Shown: positions 1,682-33,751, numbered from the stretch's first letter. The stretch: DNA of 33,773 nt from Hyphococcus sp. (GCA_021776315.1 JAJFGD010000003.1:1-33773), one strand, 5' to 3'. Notes: generated from the sequence alone by a model not told the origin. Program-made: numbers and translations.

Positions 1682-2284
1682 TTAACGCAGCGGGGAGCGA
1701 TCCCGGCTCAGAAATGACGGTGTGCTCGATCCTTTGCCATTTGCTTCTGGCTCTTCATCAACACCGTTTGCTGTGGCTGGGCGTGGCGCAGATGACGACG
1801 GACGGGTCCGACGAAAATCTTTGGCAGATGAGTCAGAAAGCGGATCGTCTGAGTGACGACAGTTACCTTCAAAATGGGCACCGGTTTCGACAGACAACGA
1901 ACTATGCAGAATGTCGCCCTGAATATAGGCAGTCGCGGCAAGCGAAACCGATTTGGCGCGAATACCGCCTTCAACACGTCCGCGAACTGTAACGGTTTCA
2001 CAGATGACTTCACCTTTAACGACAGCTTTGTCGCCAATAATCAATGACCCGGCTTTCAAATCGCCTTCGAGTGAGCCATCAAATTGGATTTCGCCAGCTG
2101 AGTTGACGTTGCCGCGCATTACGACGTCAGCGGAGATTATGGACGGGACGCCCGCTGCCTTCATAGAACTAGACCTTTTTGAGGAGGATTGAGCATTTGC
2201 CTGCGGTGCCGGGGCATCGCGAAGAGAACCTGATTGCGCATTAGATTCTGCGCCATTCTTGCTGGATTTAGCTTTCGAAAACAT
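1682..2284 (-). CDS. Bactofilin (polymer-forming cytoskeletal protein)
   Basis: Translation IISADVVMRGNVNSAGEIQFDGSLEGDLKAGSLIIGDKAVVKGEVICETVTVRGRVEGGIRAKSVSL has the bactofilin beta-helix pattern. Adjacent to an M23 peptidase. Likely start MFSK at 2284; the track extends to 2299. Confidence 0.88.
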   Translation of the reverse strand: MFSKAKSSKNGAESNAQSGSLRDAPAPQANAQSSSKRSSSMKAAGVPSIISADVVMRGNVNSAGEIQFDGSLEGDLKAGSLIIGDKAVVKGEVICETVTVRGRVEGGIRAKSVSLAATAYIQGDILHSSLSVETGAHFEGNCRHSDDPLSDSSAKDFRRTRPSSSAPRPATANGVDEEPEANGKGSSTPSFLSRDRSPLR

Positions 2285-3590
2285 ATCTACCTGCCTCAAT
2301 GAAACGGCGTGGGTTCACGGGTCTTCCTTTAAAATGGATTTCGTAGTGTACATGCGGCCCCGTTGATCGCCCGCTTGACCCTAATTCACCCACTTTATCA
2401 TGAAGGTTGACCTTTTGCCCCGCCTTTACTGATATACGATTCATATGCGCGTAACGCGTTATGAAACCATTACCGTGGTCGATTTCGACCACTCTCCCAA
2501 AACCCGACCGGGTCCCCGCGAATTTAACCAGTCCCGCTGCCGTCGCTGTGACAGGTGACGCCCAAGCCGCAGCAAAATCAATGCCATGGTGACTGGAATG
2601 GCGTCCATTAATTGGGTCGCGCCGAATACCGAAGCCGCTTGTAAATCGTCGACTGACTGTCAACGGTGATGAAAGGGGCACATAGTCCACTGCAGCCTGA
2701 ATTGCAGCGAGCTCGTCTACAGCTTCTAAGGCACGGTTAGCATGTTTGAAAAAGCGGGCGCTCGACCCATCAATATTCGCTAAGTCAATGAACGGTCCGC
2801 CTTGTGCGAGCGCAATATTCGAAATTTTGGCGGGCGTTACCAGCGACTCTGAGGTGACGCCTGTGCTTTCCAAAACCATTTCTAATGCTTCAATTTGCTG
2901 CGTGGCTTTTTCTTCGATCGACGCAATCAGCAATGTTTGCTCAAGGAATAATTCAGCAGCAGCGATTTCCATCGTCTGAATGGCGTCAGCCGCCGGTCCG
3001 TCGCCGGAGAAATTTGATGAGCTTTTGCGCTTCAGGACTTCGGCAGCAGCTTCTTTGCGCAATATTGAAATTCTTGATTGGCGTGGTGTTGGTTCACCAG
3101 GCGTAATGTCTATCATTACGCGATTGCCATTAGTGGGTTGTTGACCATTTGGCCCACCTGCTGCGGCCAAACCATTCGCGAGGGTATCTATGTCCTGATC
3201 AATGGTCGCTTTGCGTTCAACCATATTGCGCAACATTTGGTGGCGCGCGGAAATATCGTCCATGGTGGAGTCAAATTCCTGCTCAATTATATGATTAAGC
3301 ACGTTGACGTCGTCATAGGCTTTTTGGGCGTCCACTAGGCGCTTAGACAATGTCGTTTCCATCACACGAAAGTCGCGTTCTTTGGCAACAATGATTTGTT
3401 CTTTAAAAACAACATTGACGGATGCGTAGGCAATCCACATCAAGGCGGCCCCAACCACAAAGGCGAGCGCTACCTGCGTTTTTGTCGACATCGATATGAA
3501 ATGTACTACGCCATCACTTCGATGATAGATTTGTCGCTCCTTGAAGAAGCGACTCAACATACGCCTATATTTGCCGGAACGACGGCTCAT
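2268..3590 (-). CDS. M23 family metallopeptidase, membrane-anchored with coiled coil
   Basis: C-terminus has HHGIDFAAAWASPVTATAAGLVKFAG...GRVVEIDHGNGFITRYAHM...GSSGRSTGPHVHYEI (HxxxD and HxH motifs). N-terminal TM segment. Confidence 0.9.
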   Translation of the reverse strand: MSRRSGKYRRMLSRFFKERQIYHRSDGVVHFISMSTKTQVALAFVVGAALMWIAYASVNVVFKEQIIVAKERDFRVMETTLSKRLVDAQKAYDDVNVLNHIIEQEFDSTMDDISARHQMLRNMVERKATIDQDIDTLANGLAAAGGPNGQQPTNGNRVMIDITPGEPTPRQSRISILRKEAAAEVLKRKSSSNFSGDGPAADAIQTMEIAAAELFLEQTLLIASIEEKATQQIEALEMVLESTGVTSESLVTPAKISNIALAQGGPFIDLANIDGSSARFFKHANRALEAVDELAAIQAAVDYVPLSSPLTVSRRFTSGFGIRRDPINGRHSSHHGIDFAAAWASPVTATAAGLVKFAGTRSGFGRVVEIDHGNGFITRYAHMNRISVKAGQKVNLHDKVGELGSSGRSTGPHVHYEIHFKGRPVNPRRFIEAGRYVFES

Positions 3591-24757: not shown

Positions 24758-25498
24758 TTAGAATTCAGACAATACGGCTCTCAATCGCTCAAGGTCAGCT
24801 GGTTCTGACAATCTATGGTCGCCATTTTTTGTTAGCTGAATTTGGACATCTTGGCTTGCCAACAGTTCCGCATATTTGAGTGCATGCTGATACGGTACGG
24901 CGTCGTCCTTCATACCCTGCAGAATACGAACGGGGCATTCAATTGGAATGGGGTCAGTCATCACCAGTTGATGACGGCCGTCCTCAAATAGTTTTTTTGT
25001 GATGATTTCCGGTTCGTCGGCGAAGTCTGATGGCTGCTCCAGCCGGCCCGTTTGTAAAATTGTATTTCGTTGATCATCATCGAATGACGGCCACATTAGC
25101 AATTCAGTAAAGTCTGGTGCGGGTGCAATACAAACGATGCCAACTATTTTTTCGCGCCGTTGCTTTGCAAGCAATGTCGCAACCCACGCACCCATAGACG
25201 AACCCACTAGAATTTGAGGTCCAGTTGCCAAAGCGTCGAATGCAGCAATGGCGTCACCAGTCCACTCACCAATACACCCATCTTCGAATGCGCCGTCTGA
25301 TTCGCCATGACCTGAATAATCGAACCGCAAAAATGCGCGCCCTTGCTCTTTTGCCCAATCGTCCAAAAAGCTAGCTTTTGTACCGAGCATGTCAGAGCGA
25401 AAGCCACCCAGCCATATAAGGCCAGGGCCCGTGCCATCCCGGCGTCGATAGGCGATGCGCCCATGGGGCCCGTCAAGAAATTCTGGTGTTGAACTCAT
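24758..25498 (-). CDS. Alpha/beta hydrolase
   Basis: FLRFDYSGHGESDGAFED...ILVGSSMGAWVATLLA (nucleophile elbow GSSMG)...ILQGMKDDAVPYQHAL...NGDHRLSEP. Confidence 0.9.
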   Translation of the reverse strand: MSSTPEFLDGPHGRIAYRRRDGTGPGLIWLGGFRSDMLGTKASFLDDWAKEQGRAFLRFDYSGHGESDGAFEDGCIGEWTGDAIAAFDALATGPQILVGSSMGAWVATLLAKQRREKIVGIVCIAPAPDFTELLMWPSFDDDQRNTILQTGRLEQPSDFADEPEIITKKLFEDGRHQLVMTDPIPIECPVRILQGMKDDAVPYQHALKYAELLASQDVQIQLTKNGDHRLSEPADLERLRAVLSEF

Positions 25499-25685
25499 GA
25501 TTGTACCTTTTCTTCTGCGCGGACCAAAAAGAGTGTTTTTAACATACTTTTTCGTACTGAATCGTATTTTTTCGCATCAAAAAAAGTGAGTCAAAACAAT
25601 AACTTATGCTTGTTTCGCATCTTTAAATCTCTATTTTCGTGGATGTCATCGAATACCCGATGTGTAGCTTTTTTGTAGACATTTT

Positions 25686-27182
25686 TTGGAGAACGAAATG
25701 AGAAAATCAGCCCTAGTTATCAACCTTAGAGATGAAGTGGAAAACGACCCTTTCACAAACGGCAATCAAAAATACCGTGAAGGGATTCCGAGCATCGCTT
25801 TCAACAAAACCACTCTCACGCAGTATCTGAAAAAGATTGAATCGGGCGCAATTAAACCCAGTTCGAAACGATTGGCGAAATGGACAGCAAACCCCCGAAT
25901 CCATATTCGAGCCACAAAGGATGATTTGGTGTTTGTGGACTATGGACGCGTTGCGGGGAAAAGGGGCCCAACGGCGCGAACACTGGGCAGTTTCAAAGAA
26001 TGGTCTAAACGGAAAAACTGGTTAGAAGAATTAAAGAGCGGAAAGTCGCTTGCTAAAATACTGAACCCCTCATTTATAATCGAAAAAGGTAAACCAGACG
26101 CGCAGCCCCTTGATGAGTCCAGCGAAACTATGGAAAATCTCTTGCCTCAATATTTTGCATCTGAGGCAATTAAGAAAAACAAATCCCGTAGAAATCAAAT
26201 CAATATCATAAAAAACCATTTCTTAAGCGAGTTTGGCACTAGGCATGTTGCGTCAATTTCAAAGGCAGAGTTGGTTGCATGGCGTGACGCAACGGTAAAA
26301 GGCCAAAACAAATTTCAATTGAAAAAAACCAAAGAAGCCAAAAAACGGGGCAAAAAGTCTAGGCATACGGGCAGTATTGATGTTGCGAACAAGGCGTTAT
26401 CAACCCTTTCGGGCGGAATAACTTATCTAGAAGATTCCGGTATTATCGAAACTGGCGTATTTCCCCGCATTAAAAAACTAGCCGACCCCAAGTCCCAACG
26501 GGAGCCATTACCGCCATTTCAACTACGTACTCTTTGGGAAGTCGCCGCAGAAATTAAAAACCAGCGAGTGGGTGACATTATCCGGCTTCTAATTCTCACC
26601 GGACAACGCAAAGATGCCATCGCGGGCCTAAAATGGTCGGATTTGAGTTTAGACAAGACAGGCCAGCCTTGGCTCACGGTCCCTACGGAGCGCTCAAAAG
26701 GCGGCCACGAATATAGCATTCCTATCTGTCAAAACGCTGTAAATATTTTGACTAAATACAATGATGGAGAAGACGGTTTAATATTTCCGACTCGTACGAG
26801 TTACGTCAAGCCAGATAGCCACCATAAAAGACAAGTTGATACTATCATGCGCCAAAAAATGGAAAGGGCAGGGCGGTTAGCTGACTATGATCCATCATGG
26901 AAGTTACACAACGTTAGAAAAAACATTCGAAACATTCTCAGTGCTAACGGAGTTACCGACCGTGTAGCCGAACTAATCACCGGCCATAAGCTGCAAGGCA
27001 TTACAGGGTCGGAGCTAAGGTATTTAACGCGCAACTTTAATCCAGAAATGATTAGAGCCTCCAAAACTACCGCACCAATTATATACGAGCTTTGCGTCGG
27101 TGACTGGGAGTCTGTTATTGAAAAGAACATTGACCCAAAAGGTGCGCCACTGAGAGAAAATCTGCACAAATTAATTACCTAG
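25686..27182 (+). CDS. int: Tyrosine-type site-specific recombinase (phage integrase family)
   Basis: DIIRLLILTGQRKDAIAGLKWSDLSLD...KLHNVRKNIRNILSANGVTDRVAELITGHKLQGITGSELRYL gives a plausible R...HxxR...H...Y set. Confidence 0.88.
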   Translation: MENEMRKSALVINLRDEVENDPFTNGNQKYREGIPSIAFNKTTLTQYLKKIESGAIKPSSKRLAKWTANPRIHIRATKDDLVFVDYGRVAGKRGPTARTLGSFKEWSKRKNWLEELKSGKSLAKILNPSFIIEKGKPDAQPLDESSETMENLLPQYFASEAIKKNKSRRNQINIIKNHFLSEFGTRHVASISKAELVAWRDATVKGQNKFQLKKTKEAKKRGKKSRHTGSIDVANKALSTLSGGITYLEDSGIIETGVFPRIKKLADPKSQREPLPPFQLRTLWEVAAEIKNQRVGDIIRLLILTGQRKDAIAGLKWSDLSLDKTGQPWLTVPTERSKGGHEYSIPICQNAVNILTKYNDGEDGLIFPTRTSYVKPDSHHKRQVDTIMRQKMERAGRLADYDPSWKLHNVRKNIRNILSANGVTDRVAELITGHKLQGITGSELRYLTRNFNPEMIRASKTTAPIIYELCVGDWESVIEKNIDPKGAPLRENLHKLIT

Positions 27183-27207
27183 TATTTATTCAGTGTAGTG
27201 ATTATGT

Positions 27208-27316
27208 TATAATGCAGTGTGGTAAGGAAGCGCAATATCTCTCACCTTACCGCAAATCCAATGAGCGCCCTAGATGGCTTAGCTCCCCCCGCTTCACGGT
27301 CATAGCGGGGTTTTTT
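27208..27316 (+). ncRNA. Candidate ~97-nt small RNA: extended -10, 5' hairpin, 3' terminator
   Basis: TGtTATAAT (27205-27213); predicted start near 27220; hairpin GGTAAGG (27221-27227)/CCTTACC (27245-27251); terminator CCCCGCT-N10-AGCGGGG-T6 (27287-27316). Confidence 0.4.
27287..27316 (+). terminator. Rho-independent terminator
   Basis: CCCCGCT/AGCGGGG stem, 10-nt loop, T6. Confidence 0.8.
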
Positions 27317-28103
27317 ATAGCCCAATCTGATTCTCCGCGTACACTATTGCGAAAAAAAGGGCAGTTCCAAAGAGTAAGCGAAGCAAATTTAGAAAAGTAT
27401 CCCTGAGAATTTGCCGAGTCCTTATAGCAATTTCATACAAAAAACCGTGTCCTATAATTTTAAGCAATAAAGACGACTTGGGGGGAACTTGTAAGCGTTC
27501 GCTCGCAAACCCGTCCTCTTGACCAACTTCCATGTCCCCATCAACATGATCCCATTTCCACCGGACCGGCTTATCTCGCCCTCTTCCAATTTCCCACAAA
27601 ATCATATTCGTCACGAACAACAACCAAAAAGGGAATAGAGTAAATAAAAGAAAACTCCTTAAGATAAATTTCGGAAAGACTTCAGGTAGAAAAATTGCAC
27701 TCACCCAAGAAATCTGTTTCTCCTGCTTAGCCCTGTACGCTTGGGCAAATAGAATTTCATAAAAGAAATTCCAAAATGCAATTCCCCCAATGACGTAAAG
27801 ACTCAAAATGTCTTGTACAACCGAGGATAACGAAAACCATGGCGCAGGTGGCAACCACGTCAACCACTGGCCTACTAAGTTGATTAACCCCGTGAATGTC
27901 CAACCAAGCCCTGCGAAGGCGTAGTCACGCATCAAGCGGTAGACATCTAGGAAGCCGCCCGCAATGCCCTGCATGTAGGGAAACAACGGCCCTTGAAATG
28001 CACCATAAACCAGCGATGACAACGCCATAACACTGGCGAGTACGCCTAAGAAACCAAATGTTCGGCTAATCATAAAAACCCCACCCCTGCGCAACATTAG
28101 CAA
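27315..28103 (-). CDS. Multi-pass membrane protein of unknown function within the island
   Basis: Long hydrophobic segments (FGFLGVLASVMALSSLVYGAF; FLLFTLFPFWLLFVTNMIL; LLRLLFGTALFFAIVYA). Possible start MISRTF at 28073 behind a G-rich SD. Confidence 0.7.
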   Translation of the reverse strand: MLMLRRGGVFMISRTFGFLGVLASVMALSSLVYGAFQGPLFPYMQGIAGGFLDVYRLMRDYAFAGLGWTFTGLINLVGQWLTWLPPAPWFSLSSVVQDILSLYVIGGIAFWNFFYEILFAQAYRAKQEKQISWVSAIFLPEVFPKFILRSFLLFTLFPFWLLFVTNMILWEIGRGRDKPVRWKWDHVDGDMEVGQEDGFASERLQVPPKSSLLLKIIGHGFLYEIAIRTRQILRDTFLNLLRLLFGTALFFAIVYAENQIGL

Positions 28104-28284
28104 TTTATTCCGGAACAGGCAAAAATGTCTTTGGTGCTATTTTGCTAGAAAATCATGCTGTGTGACTGGTGTCAATTTCCACTCACTTTTTTCGCATTCT
28201 TTTTTCCGCGGTACCCTTTTACCTCTTGATTGAGCCGCTTCTTACCGTATTTATACGACCAAAGAATTATTAGTTGGTACAGGG

Positions 28285-28599
28285 ATGAAATTAAATAGTT
28301 ATTATAAAATTTGGAGCCTTTCAGAAGCATTCAGGAGCGGTCTCACGCCAATCAAAAACCGTGCTGACTATTATCGATTTTGCGAAAACGGTCACAAACA
28401 CGGTCTCAAGCCGCCGCCAAACCTGTCTGCGGAAGGTTGCCACAAGACAGTTTATGCAGGGCACTGGATGGAGCTTGGAAAGGCAATGCAAAAGCGCGAC
28501 TGCGCTTCACCCGAGTATCGAATGCCCACCGAAGAGGAGCAAATGGAAATAGCCATAAGTAACTTTGAAAACGAGGAAACAAAACGAAAGGAAGGATAA
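28285..28599 (+). CDS. Hypothetical protein, 104 aa
   Basis: ORF with ACAGGG upstream; collinear with the downstream small ORF and primase gene. Confidence 0.6.
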   Translation: MKLNSYYKIWSLSEAFRSGLTPIKNRADYYRFCENGHKHGLKPPPNLSAEGCHKTVYAGHWMELGKAMQKRDCASPEYRMPTEEEQMEIAISNFENEETKRKEG

Positions 28600-28604
28600 A
28601 TACG

Positions 28605-28790
28605 ATGCATGAACTCGATGCGCGCGCATCAACGGCGGAATCTGTAATTTCACAACTTGATGAAAGTCAAATGCGCAAACTACTAACTTCAATAATTAAC
28701 TTCGCCTATGACCTACACACAAGTAAAAATTTCAAAGCAGCCCGTGAACTCCTTTCACGTATAAACAATGCAAATAAGGGAAACCAATAA
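28605..28790 (+). CDS. Hypothetical protein, 61 aa
   Basis: Lies 5 nt after the previous ORF; GGAAGG SD-like; stop overlaps the primase ATG as TAATG. Confidence 0.55.
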   Translation: MHELDARASTAESVISQLDESQMRKLLTSIINFAYDLHTSKNFKAARELLSRINNANKGNQ

Positions 28791-29935
28791 TGTCAGGGCG
28801 CTGTGAAACATCCCCTTTGCGTGAATTCGTTGACCAATGGGGACACCTGCCAATAAACATCTTGCCATGTGGTGGTCGTGACTGTGATTCAGGAAAATTA
28901 CCCGTTACCCTCGGGTCACTTAAAGCCAACGGAGAGCCCAAACGCTTTAAATGGGACCATTCAATTTTCAAGGGACAAACCGAGAATACTAAGCGCAAGC
29001 TCGCCTACAAATGGCCAGAAGCCAATGTGGGAATTATATGCGGTAAAGTCAGTGGCATCACAGTGATTGACGTCGATGACCAAGCCGACATCGAAAAGGC
29101 TATACAAACTTTTGGGGCAACGCCCTTGATGGTGCAGACCGTAAAAGGAACCCACCTTTACTATCGATTCAATGGTGAAAAATCCGAGACACTTACAAAA
29201 TACGGGTTAAGGGGCGAACTACAGGCCGATGGAAGGTACGTTATCGCGCCACCCAGCTTGCGGTATGATGTTGAGGGCAATTATCGCTTTGATCGTGGCG
29301 ACTATTCGCATTTAAATAGATTGCCTAAACTAAAGTTGCCAAAGGCAAAGCAAGAAACGAAGGCAAAATACAGTGCCAATAATCCCGCGCCAGAAGGCTT
29401 TCGTACGAATCACATGTTCTTGAGCTTGAAAGACGAATTTCCCTATTGCGACAGTCTGGATGACTTAGAGGATAGAGCACTCACAATTCGCGAAAACGAA
29501 ACGAAATATGATCTAGGTCATCCATTTACAGAAAAAGATGCAATCTCTCAGGCGCGAAGTGTTTGGGATAAAGGGCAAGCTGGCCACCTATTTTTCCGCG
29601 GTGATCCAAAAGGCTATATTTTGAGAAATGCCAGTGCGGTTGACTATTTATTTGATTTTTCGCTGCAAGATGAAAAAGGCAAGAAAACCTGCTCTAACAT
29701 CGCATTTGCTGCTATGGCGTTATATATCAAGCTTGTTTCGCAGTGGAGTAGACGTGATCCATACGGCAATCCAGAGCGGTTCTACATATGCGCAAAGCCA
29801 ATGGCCAATAAAACACTTGGGTGCTCAGAAAATACTATCCGCAAAGCGACTAAGCTATTGATTGACGCAGGAGCTATAATGCGGGTACACAAAGGTACAG
29901 GGCCGGGTAACCCTTCGGTATACGTATTTTCATAA
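28790..29935 (+). CDS. PrimPol-type DNA primase/polymerase (bifunctional primase-polymerase N-domain) with C-terminal winged-helix-like segment
   Basis: GKVSGITVIDVDDQAD (acidic motif), TVKGTHLYYRF, LQADGRYVIAPPSLR match prim-pol motifs. C-terminus CSENTIRKATKLLIDAGAIMRVHKGTGPGNPSVYVF resembles wHTH. No Walker motifs. Confidence 0.82.
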   Translation: MSGRCETSPLREFVDQWGHLPINILPCGGRDCDSGKLPVTLGSLKANGEPKRFKWDHSIFKGQTENTKRKLAYKWPEANVGIICGKVSGITVIDVDDQADIEKAIQTFGATPLMVQTVKGTHLYYRFNGEKSETLTKYGLRGELQADGRYVIAPPSLRYDVEGNYRFDRGDYSHLNRLPKLKLPKAKQETKAKYSANNPAPEGFRTNHMFLSLKDEFPYCDSLDDLEDRALTIRENETKYDLGHPFTEKDAISQARSVWDKGQAGHLFFRGDPKGYILRNASAVDYLFDFSLQDEKGKKTCSNIAFAAMALYIKLVSQWSRRDPYGNPERFYICAKPMANKTLGCSENTIRKATKLLIDAGAIMRVHKGTGPGNPSVYVFS

Positions 29936-30082
29936 TGACAAAATTGTGACTGATATTATCCGTGTAATGACAATACTAATAATACTATATATATAACAGT
30001 ATATAGCCAGATTAGCCCCAGCATAGCTTGGTGAGAAATTTTTCATAAATGCCCTTTTGTGTGGTCTGATTTCAAAAATTTC

Positions 30083-30180
30083 CAGCCAAAAAAAACCAAT
30101 GCCCTTTGGACACTGGCGGGAACCGTCTATCGCCGCTTCGCCGCCTGTAGCAGCAAGCTGCCATTGGTTCCCTTTGGCTG
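30083..30180. repeat. Imperfect 19-nt inverted repeat enclosing two smaller hairpins
   Basis: CAGCCAAA-AAA-AACCAATG (30083-30101) pairs with CATTGGTT-CCC-TTTGGCTG (30162-30180). Inside: GGCGG (30115-30119)/CCGCC (30141-30145), and GCAGC-AA-GCTGC (30150-30161). Confidence 0.7.
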
Positions 30181-30521
30181 AAGACGAAACATCACAGAGC
30201 CAACACAACCATTGCATTTTCACAAAAATTACTGTATAATGTTCGTATACGGATGGTAGCTGTTTCTTCTAAGTAATTATTTCCTGAGTGGCAGCAAGTG
30301 CTAAACGCCGTAGATTAAACTAATTCAGGCGTAGCTAGGTATTGATAGCAGTGTAGCTATTTTGGCTATAACTCATTGTTTTTATTTGAGCGCTCGTCAC
30401 TCATCCTGAAAGGGTTTTAGGCGTTAGAGCTGAACCCGTGCCCTCAAAATTCCAAAACACCAGAGACGCGCCTCCGACCCATAGCGCTACTATGCTATTT
30501 AACAGTTTATGAGTTTTAAAA

Positions 30522-31265
30522 ATGATTATTGATCAAAAAGATTCCAACCAAAAAGTCTTCCAAGTTACAGACGACCTCAACCAAATCACCGCAAGTGATT
30601 TTCGGGCTGGTTATGTACCACCAGAACTTGCTGTTTCAGACCATCCAGCCGTTTCTGCTGTTGCAACGCATATCAGCCGACCAAAGTTCATCATGGAAGG
30701 CCTGAAACGGTATGAGCGAGACCAGCGCGATTTTGACTTGGGCACGGAAGATACAAAACGCCACAGATTGCGAACGGTCGCCAATGCACATTGTGCCCCA
30801 GTACTGCACGAGATGAAAGAAGCTCTCAAGGTTGCTCAATCTAAGTTTGATCAATTGGAGGCAAAGCGAAAGCAGGCGTATGAGGCACCTAGAGTCGAAG
30901 TTGCGCAACGCCTTAATCAAATCAGAAACGAATTACAGTCGATGGATTCTGAGTCGCGTATACATCACATCGCGCGTGCATTGCGAGAAAACGACAACGA
31001 CACCATCGCGGCTATTGCTGCCTATCCTCAAAACGAAAATGTTTGCCCCAAGGCCTATTATTGGCAGGCAAGCCACGCTCATGAGGCTAACCATATGGGG
31101 CCAGATTCTTTAGTCCATCAAGACCTTGTTGCAGCCATAAACGGTTTAGAACGCTCAATAGAGTCCTTCGAGGTTGAGGCCGCGTTTTTTGGGGCTGGTG
31201 AAAATGATGCAGGCGAGGCGATCTATAACGCCGCAATAAATGCAGACTTCGAAGGGGGCAACTAA
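30522..31265 (+). CDS. Hypothetical protein, 247 aa, partly coiled coil
   Basis: Long ORF; heptad-like MKEALKVAQSKFDQLEAKRKQAYEAP; stop overlaps next start as TAATG. Confidence 0.7.
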   Translation: MIIDQKDSNQKVFQVTDDLNQITASDFRAGYVPPELAVSDHPAVSAVATHISRPKFIMEGLKRYERDQRDFDLGTEDTKRHRLRTVANAHCAPVLHEMKEALKVAQSKFDQLEAKRKQAYEAPRVEVAQRLNQIRNELQSMDSESRIHHIARALRENDNDTIAAIAAYPQNENVCPKAYYWQASHAHEANHMGPDSLVHQDLVAAINGLERSIESFEVEAAFFGAGENDAGEAIYNAAINADFEGGN

Positions 31266-31753
31266 TGCGTACTAATAAGATCATTCAAAACGGAGACGAA
31301 GCCAAGATTGCGGCCTTAATCGGTGAGGGGCTTTCTCTTCGGGAATTAGAAGATTGCACGCCATATACTTTCGGAGAACTTAGAACATTTCGCTCGCATG
31401 TCCTTAACGAAAAAGCTGCGAAGTCACTGGAAGTTGAATCTGGTGATTTTGTTCAAGAACTCGTCAATCAAAATTGTCGCCTAAAGACTCTACTTCAAAA
31501 CCACAAGCCGCGTGAAATCGAAACAACCCTCCGTATAGAGCAACGGCTAGGTGAAAACACAAAAGCATTAATCAGCCTACAGAAGGAAAAACTCTTAGAA
31601 GAACGCCAGAATGAAGAAAATGCAGAAAGCGCTCAAATTGGCGCGCTGGTCGCCAGTGTTCAAGCGGCCACTGAGGATTGCAAACAGTGCCGAAACTCCA
31701 TCAGAGAGGCGCTGAAGCCCCTTATTGAGGCGAATACTCATGACACAGAGTAA
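31265..31753 (+). CDS. Hypothetical protein with HTH-like N-terminus and coiled coil; candidate small-terminase analogue
   Basis: KIAALIGEGLSLRELEDCTPYTFGELRTFRSHV then a long helical region; immediately upstream of the terminase ATPase. Confidence 0.6.
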   Translation: MRTNKIIQNGDEAKIAALIGEGLSLRELEDCTPYTFGELRTFRSHVLNEKAAKSLEVESGDFVQELVNQNCRLKTLLQNHKPREIETTLRIEQRLGENTKALISLQKEKLLEERQNEENAESAQIGALVASVQAATEDCKQCRNSIREALKPLIEANTHDTE

Positions 31754-32546
31754 GGACGGATATCAGGCACTGGATAGGGCACTACAGAGGGATTTCTTCT
31801 TTAAGCAAAACAATTTGGTACCACTTCGATTTCAATTGGATTTGATGGAATTGGAACACGATGATTATCTCATCTTATGCAGTAGGAGATCAGGTAAGAC
31901 ATTTTCAGCCGCAGCATTGGCGGCACATCGGGCGTTAAATTATCCGGGTACTGATGTGCTATTCTGTTCGCCGACCGAACAACAAGCTAGAGAAACCATT
32001 AGAATCTGTAAGAATTTGATAATCGGTGCTTCTTGTGGTGCTGAAATCAGAAACTTCTACAACCTAGAGATTCAGTGTAAGAATAATTCCCGCATTTTGG
32101 GGGTGCAAACACAGCGCCCAGACAATTTGCGCGGTAAGGGGGCCAATGTCATCATTTTTGACGAAGCGGCCACAATATCCAATGAAGCATTTCAAACTTT
32201 GCTTCCTGTGTTGTCGGCAACAGAAAGGCCAAAATTCATTGCGTTGACCACTGCTAAAGGCAAGTCAGGTTGGTTCTATGATTTGTGGACAGATGAAACA
32301 GAAGAGGCGGTTAAGATCAAACTGACTGCGCTTGAGACTCCGCATATTTCAAAAGAGTTTCTCGAAAAAGCAAAGAAACGCATGAGTCCGACAACTTTTG
32401 AAAGGGAATACTTGTGTGAGTTTGGAGCGTCTGAATCTAGCTTCATTCCACAGCAAATTATTGACGATACTTTTCAGCCATTGGGCAATCTGGCAAATCA
32501 GGAGGATGCATGGACATTTCGCGAGTCGTTCACCATAGCAATATAA
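31740..32546 (+). CDS. Phage terminase large subunit, ATPase domain
   Basis: Walker A CSRRSGKTFSAA, Walker B VIIFDEAATIS, coupling motif ALTTAKGKSGWFYDLW, then FEREYLCEFGASESSFIP. Likely ATG at 31740; the track starts at 31725. Confidence 0.88.
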   Translation: MTQSKDGYQALDRALQRDFFFKQNNLVPLRFQLDLMELEHDDYLILCSRRSGKTFSAAALAAHRALNYPGTDVLFCSPTEQQARETIRICKNLIIGASCGAEIRNFYNLEIQCKNNSRILGVQTQRPDNLRGKGANVIIFDEAATISNEAFQTLLPVLSATERPKFIALTTAKGKSGWFYDLWTDETEEAVKIKLTALETPHISKEFLEKAKKRMSPTTFEREYLCEFGASESSFIPQQIIDDTFQPLGNLANQEDAWTFRESFTIAI

Positions 32547-33196
32547 TAGACTTAGGCCCTGACTTTGATCTATTGCAGAATCCACCTGTGCAGTTTTCGT
32601 TTTTCATCGGAGTCGATATTGGTAAAGCGCAAGACTCAACTGTCATCACAACAATTCAACGGAAAGATGTGAACTTTAAAAAAGTAAAGTATACAGAATA
32701 TAGTGTTCTCGATATTGTTAAGCTACCAAAAAAAGTAGACTTCGTAAAACAAGCACAACAAATTGCTGACTACTTAAGAAAAACAAACTTCAAAAATCAT
32801 TCATATGAATGTTGCGTTGATGCTAGCGGTGTTGGTGCGCCTGTTTGTGATTTCATCAAGAGTGAACATCCGGACGTTAAGATAAGACCAATTCATATAG
32901 TTTCAGGCGAAGGCAAAAAATACAATCGTTACAGTAGAAACTATCTGATCAATATGGTTCGAAACTGGATGGGCAAATCCAACTTTAAAATATCATCTGA
33001 CCTTGAAGAAGCTGATGAATTGAAGCGACAAATTGAAACGATTGAAGAAATCGAAACACAAGCGGGAAATATTCTCCTAAAGACTCAAACACAACATGAC
33101 GATCATTTGATGAGCCTCGCGCTTGCTTTAATCGAGCTTAACATAAAAGACAGAATTAGAGGCGGCACAACCGATTACCTTTTTTCACACCTCTAA
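32510..33196 (+). CDS. Phage terminase large subunit, RNase H-fold nuclease domain as a separate overlapping ORF
   Basis: FFIGVDIGKAQDSTVITTI, ECCVDASGVGAPVCDFI, HDDHLMSLALALIEL nuclease motifs. Own SD GGAGG at 32501-32505; overlaps the ATPase ORF by 37 nt in the -1 frame. Confidence 0.85.
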   Translation: MDISRVVHHSNIIDLGPDFDLLQNPPVQFSFFIGVDIGKAQDSTVITTIQRKDVNFKKVKYTEYSVLDIVKLPKKVDFVKQAQQIADYLRKTNFKNHSYECCVDASGVGAPVCDFIKSEHPDVKIRPIHIVSGEGKKYNRYSRNYLINMVRNWMGKSNFKISSDLEEADELKRQIETIEEIETQAGNILLKTQTQHDDHLMSLALALIELNIKDRIRGGTTDYLFSHL

Positions 33197-33295
33197 AGGG
33201 CTTTTACCATTTCTGGCAGTGCCTAAAACTGGCTTCAACGGCTGCTTTTCGCCAAGAGCGGCGCTCAATAATCATTTGCTTGCCATGCATACGAA

Positions 33296-33322
33296 AAAAC
33301 CCCGCACAAATGGCGGGGCTTT
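33296..33322. terminator. Hairpin terminator between convergent genes
   Basis: CCCCGC (33300-33305)/GCGGGG (33313-33318), with an upstream A6 that gives a T6 tract on the minus strand. Confidence 0.65.
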
Positions 33323-33343
33323 AGACGGTGAAACACATCTTGT

Positions 33344-33751
33344 TTAGTTGGATGTATTCGACCGACTTGAGTTGATGCTTACGGTGCTCACAACCTCACC
33401 ATAGTTGTCCATTAAGTCAGCCTTCATTTCAGCAAGGGCACTGTCAACGAGACTTTCATAAGCGTCACTGGACATTTCTGTCGCTGATGTCGTGAGGTCA
33501 AAAGACAATGCATATGTATATTGCGTGCCCGGTGTTTTCTCGGGGGCGATGTTAAAGTTGTTTGAACGCCCTGAATTGATACTAACGACCGAAACCTTTG
33601 GTGCTTCTTTCGGCGGTTTCTCGGCCTCAGATACTTCAGTCGGCTTTTTGAGTTTCTTTGGCTTCTTTTCATCCTCTGCGGAGGCGGTAACCCCAGCAAA
33701 TAACAAGGCAACAGCAGAGGCCGTCAGTGTAAGTGCAATATGTTTTTTCAT
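33344..33751 (-). CDS. Small exported protein with a duplicated VSxVSINSxRSNxxN motif
   Basis: Signal peptide MKKHIALTLTASAVALLFAGVTASAED, Lys/Pro/Glu-rich linker, VSVVSINSGRSNNFN mid-protein and VSTVSINSSRSNTSN at the C-terminus. Confidence 0.7.
   Translation of the reverse strand: MKKHIALTLTASAVALLFAGVTASAEDEKKPKKLKKPTEVSEAEKPPKEAPKVSVVSINSGRSNNFNIAPEKTPGTQYTYALSFDLTTSATEMSSDAYESLVDSALAEMKADLMDNYGEVVSTVSINSSRSNTSN

Follow-up and report, generated by a model that had tools for sequence, protein, structure and literature searches.

The locus raises the question of what kind of mobile element carries an integrase, a replication protein and a terminase without any recognised gene for a virus particle. 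The window analysed here, a 33,773-bp stretch of Hyphococcus sp. DNA, corresponds to the full length of contig C113 in a MAG of 275 contigs and 95% completeness. The first-pass annotation had described towards its right end a compact integrase-PrimPol-terminase island and read it as a satellite with its own terminase or a deleted prophage. The island is real, with profile matches to PF00589, PF09250 and PF03237 and small ORFs between them. Our analysis favours, with a probability of about 0.74, a phage satellite, integrated and about 8.6 kb long, that possesses its own terminase and is packaged in helper particles. The more interesting point is a separately encoded TerL nuclease that recurs in elements with no recognised capsid genes.

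The GC content is about 44% in the island and about 50% in the ordinary chromosome to the left of 25.5 kb. In the Hyphococcus sp. genome, the island separates a hydrolase gene (24758-25498), its left-hand neighbour, from a conserved glycosyltransferase gene, and it is bounded by two copies of a 17-bp repeat that none of 2,000 base-shuffled flank controls could reach (longest 14 bp). The right attachment site, which the first-pass annotation could not see, is missing from the window because the contig stops at 33773; it lies on contig C127, which overlaps C113. The final 33 bp of C113 are identical to the end of C127, which reaches attR 373 bp past the window end and then enters the glycosyltransferase gene. 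Since contig C80 ends in the same 33-bp sequence, the C113-C127 join depends on the att repeats and on synteny. In joined coordinates, the element extends from 25509 to about 34146 and measures 8,621 bp from one att repeat to the other. Both the empty site and the two att repeats, for which comparison with related genomes had been proposed, were thus located: in about 12 genomes of the genus, the glycosyltransferase and hydrolase orthologues are adjacent and divergent, and joining the present flanks via one repeat leaves a 52-bp intergenic gap, compared with about 33-129 bp in genus relatives. The attB is therefore intergenic, between the hydrolase and glycosyltransferase genes; no tRNA or RNA feature was found at this site, and the window contains no tRNA. 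TGTAGA/TGTAGC motifs occur in pairs close to either end and may plausibly serve as integrase arm sites, the pair at the right end lying 116-127 bp inside attR (joined 34003/34014).

Table 1. Features of the element, in window coordinates unless stated otherwise.
Feature	Position	Strand	Remarks
attL core TTTCTTCTGCGCGGACC	25509-25525		17-bp exact direct repeat; 10 bp upstream of hydrolase start
Possible integrase arm sites (TGTAGC...TGTAGACATTTT)	25663-25685	+	Motif listing; putative function
Tyrosine integrase	25686-27182	+	498 aa from TTG; 494 aa from ATG 25698
Predicted membrane protein, 262 aa	27315-28103	-	Probable cargo; hydrophobic segments read by eye
Small ORF, 104 aa	28285-28599	+	Possible regulator; upstream of PrimPol
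Small ORF, 61 aa	28605-28790	+	1-bp overlap with PrimPol start
PrimPol replication protein	28790-29935	+	PF09250, E 1e-15; C-terminal HTH-like region
Non-coding region, 586 bp	29936-30521		Candidate replication origin and/or packaging site
Helical protein of terminase cluster, 247 aa	30522-31265	+	Resembles protein next to C200 TerL
Candidate small terminase (TerS), 162 aa	31265-31753	+	N-terminal HTH and long helix; directly before TerL
TerL ATPase, 268 aa	31740-32546	+	Alternative TTG start 31725
TerL RuvC-like nuclease	32510-33196	+	Separate ORF; AGGAGG, then ATG a few nt on
Stem-loop terminator	~33294-33322	-	T-run on minus strand, read from the sequence
Secreted/periplasmic protein, 135 aa	33344-33751	-	Cargo; signal peptide by eye; inside element
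attR, identical copy of TTTCTTCTGCGCGGACC	C127, joined 34130-34146		25 bp before glycosyltransferase start

The integrase matched PF00589 (E 4e-13) and phrog_1 (E 6e-33), and its catalytic R/H/R/H/Y residues are conserved with the integrase of a sister element on contig C200, to which it is 35-38% identical. The PrimPol is helicase-less, as had been proposed, with no helicase domain found using Pfam and PHROGs, while its C-terminal region displayed weak HTH_36 and DnaD-like matches. It shares 54% identity with a homologue in genome G020, the DxD and H residues being invariant. The G020 locus (L010 8262-14127) combines this PrimPol relative with AbiEi/AbiEii and contains no TerL within the 20 kb read; a gene placed there similarly to the 104-aa ORF (L010 8262-8612) gave a weak excisionase-type match. 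Downstream of the PrimPol gene, the 586-bp region revealed no convincing ORF, RNA family or clear iterons, and it includes an AT-rich palindrome (29976-30015) and an imperfect inverted repeat (30083-30101/30162-30180).

The TerL ATPase matched PF03237 (E 2e-20), phrog_2 (E 1e-38) and, in the PDB, T4 gp17 (1e-6), and possesses both a Walker A (SRRSGKT) and a Walker B (IIFDE) motif. The first-pass annotation was thus right that a large terminase is present but not that it is one gene, as the nuclease resides on a second ORF that overlaps the ATPase ORF by 37 bp in a different frame. This ORF matched PF17289 (7e-4) and phrog_27743 (1e-11), its family profile matched the TerL nuclease structures 5TGE/5M1F (1e-14), and the catalytic acids D36, D104 and D197-D198 are invariant across 12 diverse sequences. 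The defining components of a tailed-phage TerL, a Walker ATPase and a RuvC-like nuclease with its catalytic acids, are accordingly both encoded, on two ORFs, and the packaging motor is unusual because pump and cutter are two separate genes. The HTH of the candidate TerS was modelled by AlphaFold at pLDDT 94-96, and the protein aligns with a TerS-like family that precedes TerL in about 30 loci, one member of which is PF03592 (Terminase_2). The TerS profile scored weakly for this protein but strongly for its counterparts in C200 and in G045, a genome of the same genus, and a Foldseek search of the model returned solely LuxR/NarL-type HTH matches with E above 1. The adjoining 247-aa protein shares 30% identity over 90 aa (E 2e-6) with the 266-aa neighbour of the C200 TerL, while its resemblance to the 263-aa protein beside the G045 TerL was not significant; its AlphaFold model (pLDDT 46) was too poor and was discarded. 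Overall, both domain identity and intact active sites are established for the two TerL proteins.

The overlap between the two TerL ORFs brings in a different account, namely that the element is a genuine satellite in which a recent frameshift, or an indel in the assembly, disrupted terL, so that this copy can no longer package itself or the two-ORF structure is an artefact. The window split may indeed be a private frameshift: the nearest TerLs, in C200 and C142, are each encoded by one ORF, the data come from a MAG, the two ORFs share 37 bp and not a neat ATGA, and part of the AGGAGG that precedes the nuclease ATG derives from conserved Q-E codons. However, both halves are full-length and retain all catalytic residues, the nuclease ATG follows the AGGAGG by a few nucleotides, and many relatives, G045 among them, also encode the halves separately. 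The overlap also holds no -1 slippery heptamer, on which ground programmed frameshifting of terL was likewise considered and set aside. We regard a broken terL as unlikely, if far from negligible.

Pfam and PHROGs identified none of the ten main ORFs as a portal, capsid, protease, tail or lysis gene, and no portal gene follows the large terminase, in agreement with the first-pass annotation. Nor do portal, capsid or tail genes follow beyond 33773: none of the ORFs fully contained in the 373 bp before attR exceeds 60 aa, and the chromosomal gene begins after attR. A search of the whole MAG for Phage_portal (PF04860) gave no match, while four control genomes matched. A portal too divergent for Pfam and PHROGs could be missed, although there is little room for one. 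With no virus-particle genes recognised, the element probably rides in the particles of another phage; no helper phage was found. As in phage satellites generally, the element is integrated, has att sites and an integrase, and lacks a recognisable complete structural set. The terminator that had been placed after the terminase is present as a stem-loop, but its T-run lies on the minus strand and it therefore serves mainly the opposite-strand gene at 33344-33751, a gene correctly noted before that turns out to lie inside the element and not in its flank.

Could the same gene content be that of a prophage stripped of its head and tail genes, with integrase, replication and terminase kept? All named genes have phage homologues, and a portal normally follows the terminase genes, as such an origin would predict. 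Against it, the element is complete from att to att with intact ORFs, sisters of similar content occur in one genome, and similar gene sets occur in distant taxa, so that lysis, portal and capsid genes would have to be lost repeatedly while int, replication and terminase genes were spared. The deleted-prophage option of the first-pass annotation is thus quite improbable, and its other option, a satellite that brings its own terminase, best accounts for an element with no structural genes past 33773 and with syntenic elements elsewhere.

These relatives were compared further. The C200 element carries int, SIR2-like and ankyrin genes, a single-ORF 509-aa TerL (39-42% identical to the window terminase), a 108-aa TerS-like protein and the 266-aa protein, and the C142 element carries a TerL (79% identical to that of C200), a SIR2-like gene and an integrase adjoining tRNA-Arg. 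Both contigs are cut, their far ends lying outside the sequence; between the facing TerL and int genes no structural gene was found, cargo alone occupying the interval. The combination of int, replication, TerS-like and TerL genes without recognised structural genes was found in C200, C142, Acetobacter sacchari, two further alphaproteobacterial genomes and a Streptomyces plasmid, so that the search for the same gene order in other alphaproteobacteria, which had been suggested, returned similar sets. One such locus (L198) comprises tRNA-Arg, int, a primase-helicase, a PF03592 TerS, ATPase and nuclease, and another (L199) is a tRNA-Gly-adjacent two-gene-terminase element with CBASS cargo; neither has a recognised portal. 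In L198, one TerL ATPase gene is followed by two tandem nuclease genes (2186-3414). Repeats of the tRNA ends were not found within the sequenced L198, L199 and C142 loci. The Streptomyces plasmid (L186) combines int, PrimPol, a P4-type primase and a two-gene terminase. A C200 ORF (L007 18179-18658) weakly matches PF23343, a rolling-circle-type replication protein, suggesting that the sister satellites may replicate differently. Three 10-13 kb viral contigs with terminal repeats (L072, L076, L087) resembled satellites at first sight but were dropped from the evidence, since their runs of larger ORFs would also fit small phages that have a fused TerL. The acidobacterial loci L172, L175 and L176 look like orphan terminase genes amid chromosomal genes and were left out of the satellite count.

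The SIR2-like proteins of the two sisters (L007 11600-12655 and L008 1166-2239) are only 21% identical yet take up equivalent positions, each lying between TerL and integrase, which is likely a hotspot for defence cargo. The CBASS cargo of L199 (11636-13851) is a pair of patatin phospholipase and CD-NTase. Defence-like cargo in sisters and relatives (SIR2-like, CBASS, AbiE) would also fit a defence island built from captured terminase parts, in which the terminase genes block helper packaging and do not package the element. Interference alone, however, requires neither the joint retention of TerS-like, ATPase and nuclease genes nor their intact active sites, and we consider such an island highly improbable.

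How widespread is the two-gene terminase? In the collected loci, ATPase and nuclease lie on separate ORFs in 48 and on one ORF in 83, numbers that are not population frequencies because the loci were gathered by similarity; some of the 48 whose ORFs overlap at length may reflect sequencing errors. An ATGA overlap joins the two ORFs of many split terminases, while in L174 the halves are separated by a 152-aa ORF and in L200 they are on opposite strands. In the acidobacterial locus L176, the orphan TerL genes have the ATPase/nuclease order reversed. Some split TerLs belong to phages that have a portal or connector (L021, PF12236; L025, phrog_145); others occur without a recognised portal, in the window, G045, L174, L198, L199, L051 and the Streptomyces plasmid. 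Portal absence is less certain in the Salinibacter plasmids L184 and L185 because large unassigned ORFs are present. The split is found again and again, in dozens of phage contigs as well as in elements of Alphaproteobacteria and Streptomyces that have no recognised portal. We found no description of separately encoded TerL ATPase and nuclease in the open literature searched, which is not proof of absence. On L184 and L185, the Salinibacter ruber plasmids pSR11 and pSR14, the two-gene terminase is annotated as 'terminase family protein' and 'hypothetical protein'; ParA is also encoded, together with a P4-type primase or primase-helicase.

Most split sequences fall into a single clade of the TerL tree, while the window groups with the fused C200 and C142 sequences with full support, implying either an independent split or re-fusion in the sisters; the window split may thus be independent of the main split clade. 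The nuclease family occurs in 7 of 387 alphaproteobacterial genomes, including that of Hyphococcus sp., and within the bacterial family the terminase occurs in two of 62 genomes, Hyphococcus sp. and G045. A collection of genome contigs yielded nine confirmed loci spanning Acidobacteria, Actinobacteria, Acetobacter and others. The element type has a sparse and patchy distribution, as would be expected for mobile DNA. Among isolated phages, the closest ATPase matches were the Thermus/Meiothermus phages Riverbug, MMP7 and MMP17 (about 31-33% identity), which differ in having a single-ORF TerL followed by a portal gene; the window nuclease matched no isolated phage. Viral contigs scanned with the individual window proteins (TerL ATPase, PrimPol and nuclease) and with an alignment of the integrase yielded no match, and the PrimPol, integrase and nuclease have no close relative in these contigs.

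Taken as a satellite with its own terminase, the element suggests the following mechanism. The integrase would insert and excise it at the intergenic attB, where both att sites are seen, and the PrimPol would start replication, probably from the 586-bp region, with a host or helper helicase. The TerS-like protein, the TerL ATPase and the separately translated nuclease may then assemble into a packaging motor that would recognise satellite DNA, dock on the portal of a helper procapsid, pump the DNA in and cut it, while heads, tails and lysis would be supplied by the helper and the membrane and secreted proteins would be cargo. From the gene content we infer packaging of the element in helper particles. 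More tentatively, at somewhat less than even odds, it may belong to a broad family, comprising satellites and satellite plasmids without a capsid of their own, in which a module of TerS-like protein, ATPase and free nuclease fills the procapsids of unrelated helpers.

Most described satellites borrow the helper TerL or encode both capsid and terminase. The closest precedent comes from glacier viromes, in which satellite plasmids encode PrimPol, integrase and terminase: satellite phage-plasmids of group 8, for which no phage structural genes were reported, are under 16 kb, carry PrimPol and integrase, in one case with a terminase, and were assembled from virus-size DNA (Bellas et al. 2015, PMC4490671). 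In contrast to the present element, they are plasmid-like circular scaffolds without an att-to-att chromosomal copy, and their terminase was not described as two genes. The cfPICI and Mulch/Flayer satellites likewise have their own TerS and TerL but encode portal, capsid and connectors, none of which was recognised here (PMC10690885). PICI/SaPI and P4-like satellites share an integrase, a replication protein and the lack of tail genes, some SaPIs also having terS, but use the helper TerL, and no PICI/P4 regulators or capsid-size genes were recognised in the element. Specifically, AlpA/Stl-type regulation, Pri-Rep and capsid redirection were unmatched, terS was represented by a weak candidate, and no P4 alpha-type primase-helicase, sid, psu or delta was matched. 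PICMIs are similarly minimal, with an integrase, a primase, few genes and no capsid remodelling, but they have a DUF3987/DUF5906 primase and a fis site, terminase genes being unmentioned (PMC10803314). In the present element, neither that primase, AlpA nor a fis insertion was found; it has a PF09250 PrimPol and a hydrolase-glycosyltransferase intergenic site. VEIMEs and Tycheposons are comparable as marine integrative elements with tyrosine recombinases that have been proposed to be satellites. Some of them carry terminase genes.

A comparative survey found the TerL architecture of N-terminal ATPase and C-terminal nuclease to be universal in the jumbo phages covered, and the TerL-associated nuclease domain to be universal across tailed phages (PMC7824862), whereas dozens of loci here have separate ATPase and nuclease genes, in one case on opposite strands, so that the two-gene TerL is of interest beyond satellites. 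The question of when and how cutting is coupled to pumping could be approached simply with a free nuclease. An element that supplies TerS and TerL but neither capsid nor portal would need a motor compatible with a foreign portal, and motor-portal compatibility would be directly testable. Terminase-only islands are easily overlooked or classed as prophage remnants.

As for the cargo, the 262-aa membrane protein gave no match in Pfam, PHROG and PADLOC searches. The 135-aa secreted family (MKKHIALTLTASAVALLFAGV...) was found in none of 27 other genomes of the genus, and paralogues are present in the same genome at C80 6104-6511 (79%) and C209 3458-3847 (48%), two of the three copies lying at contig ends.
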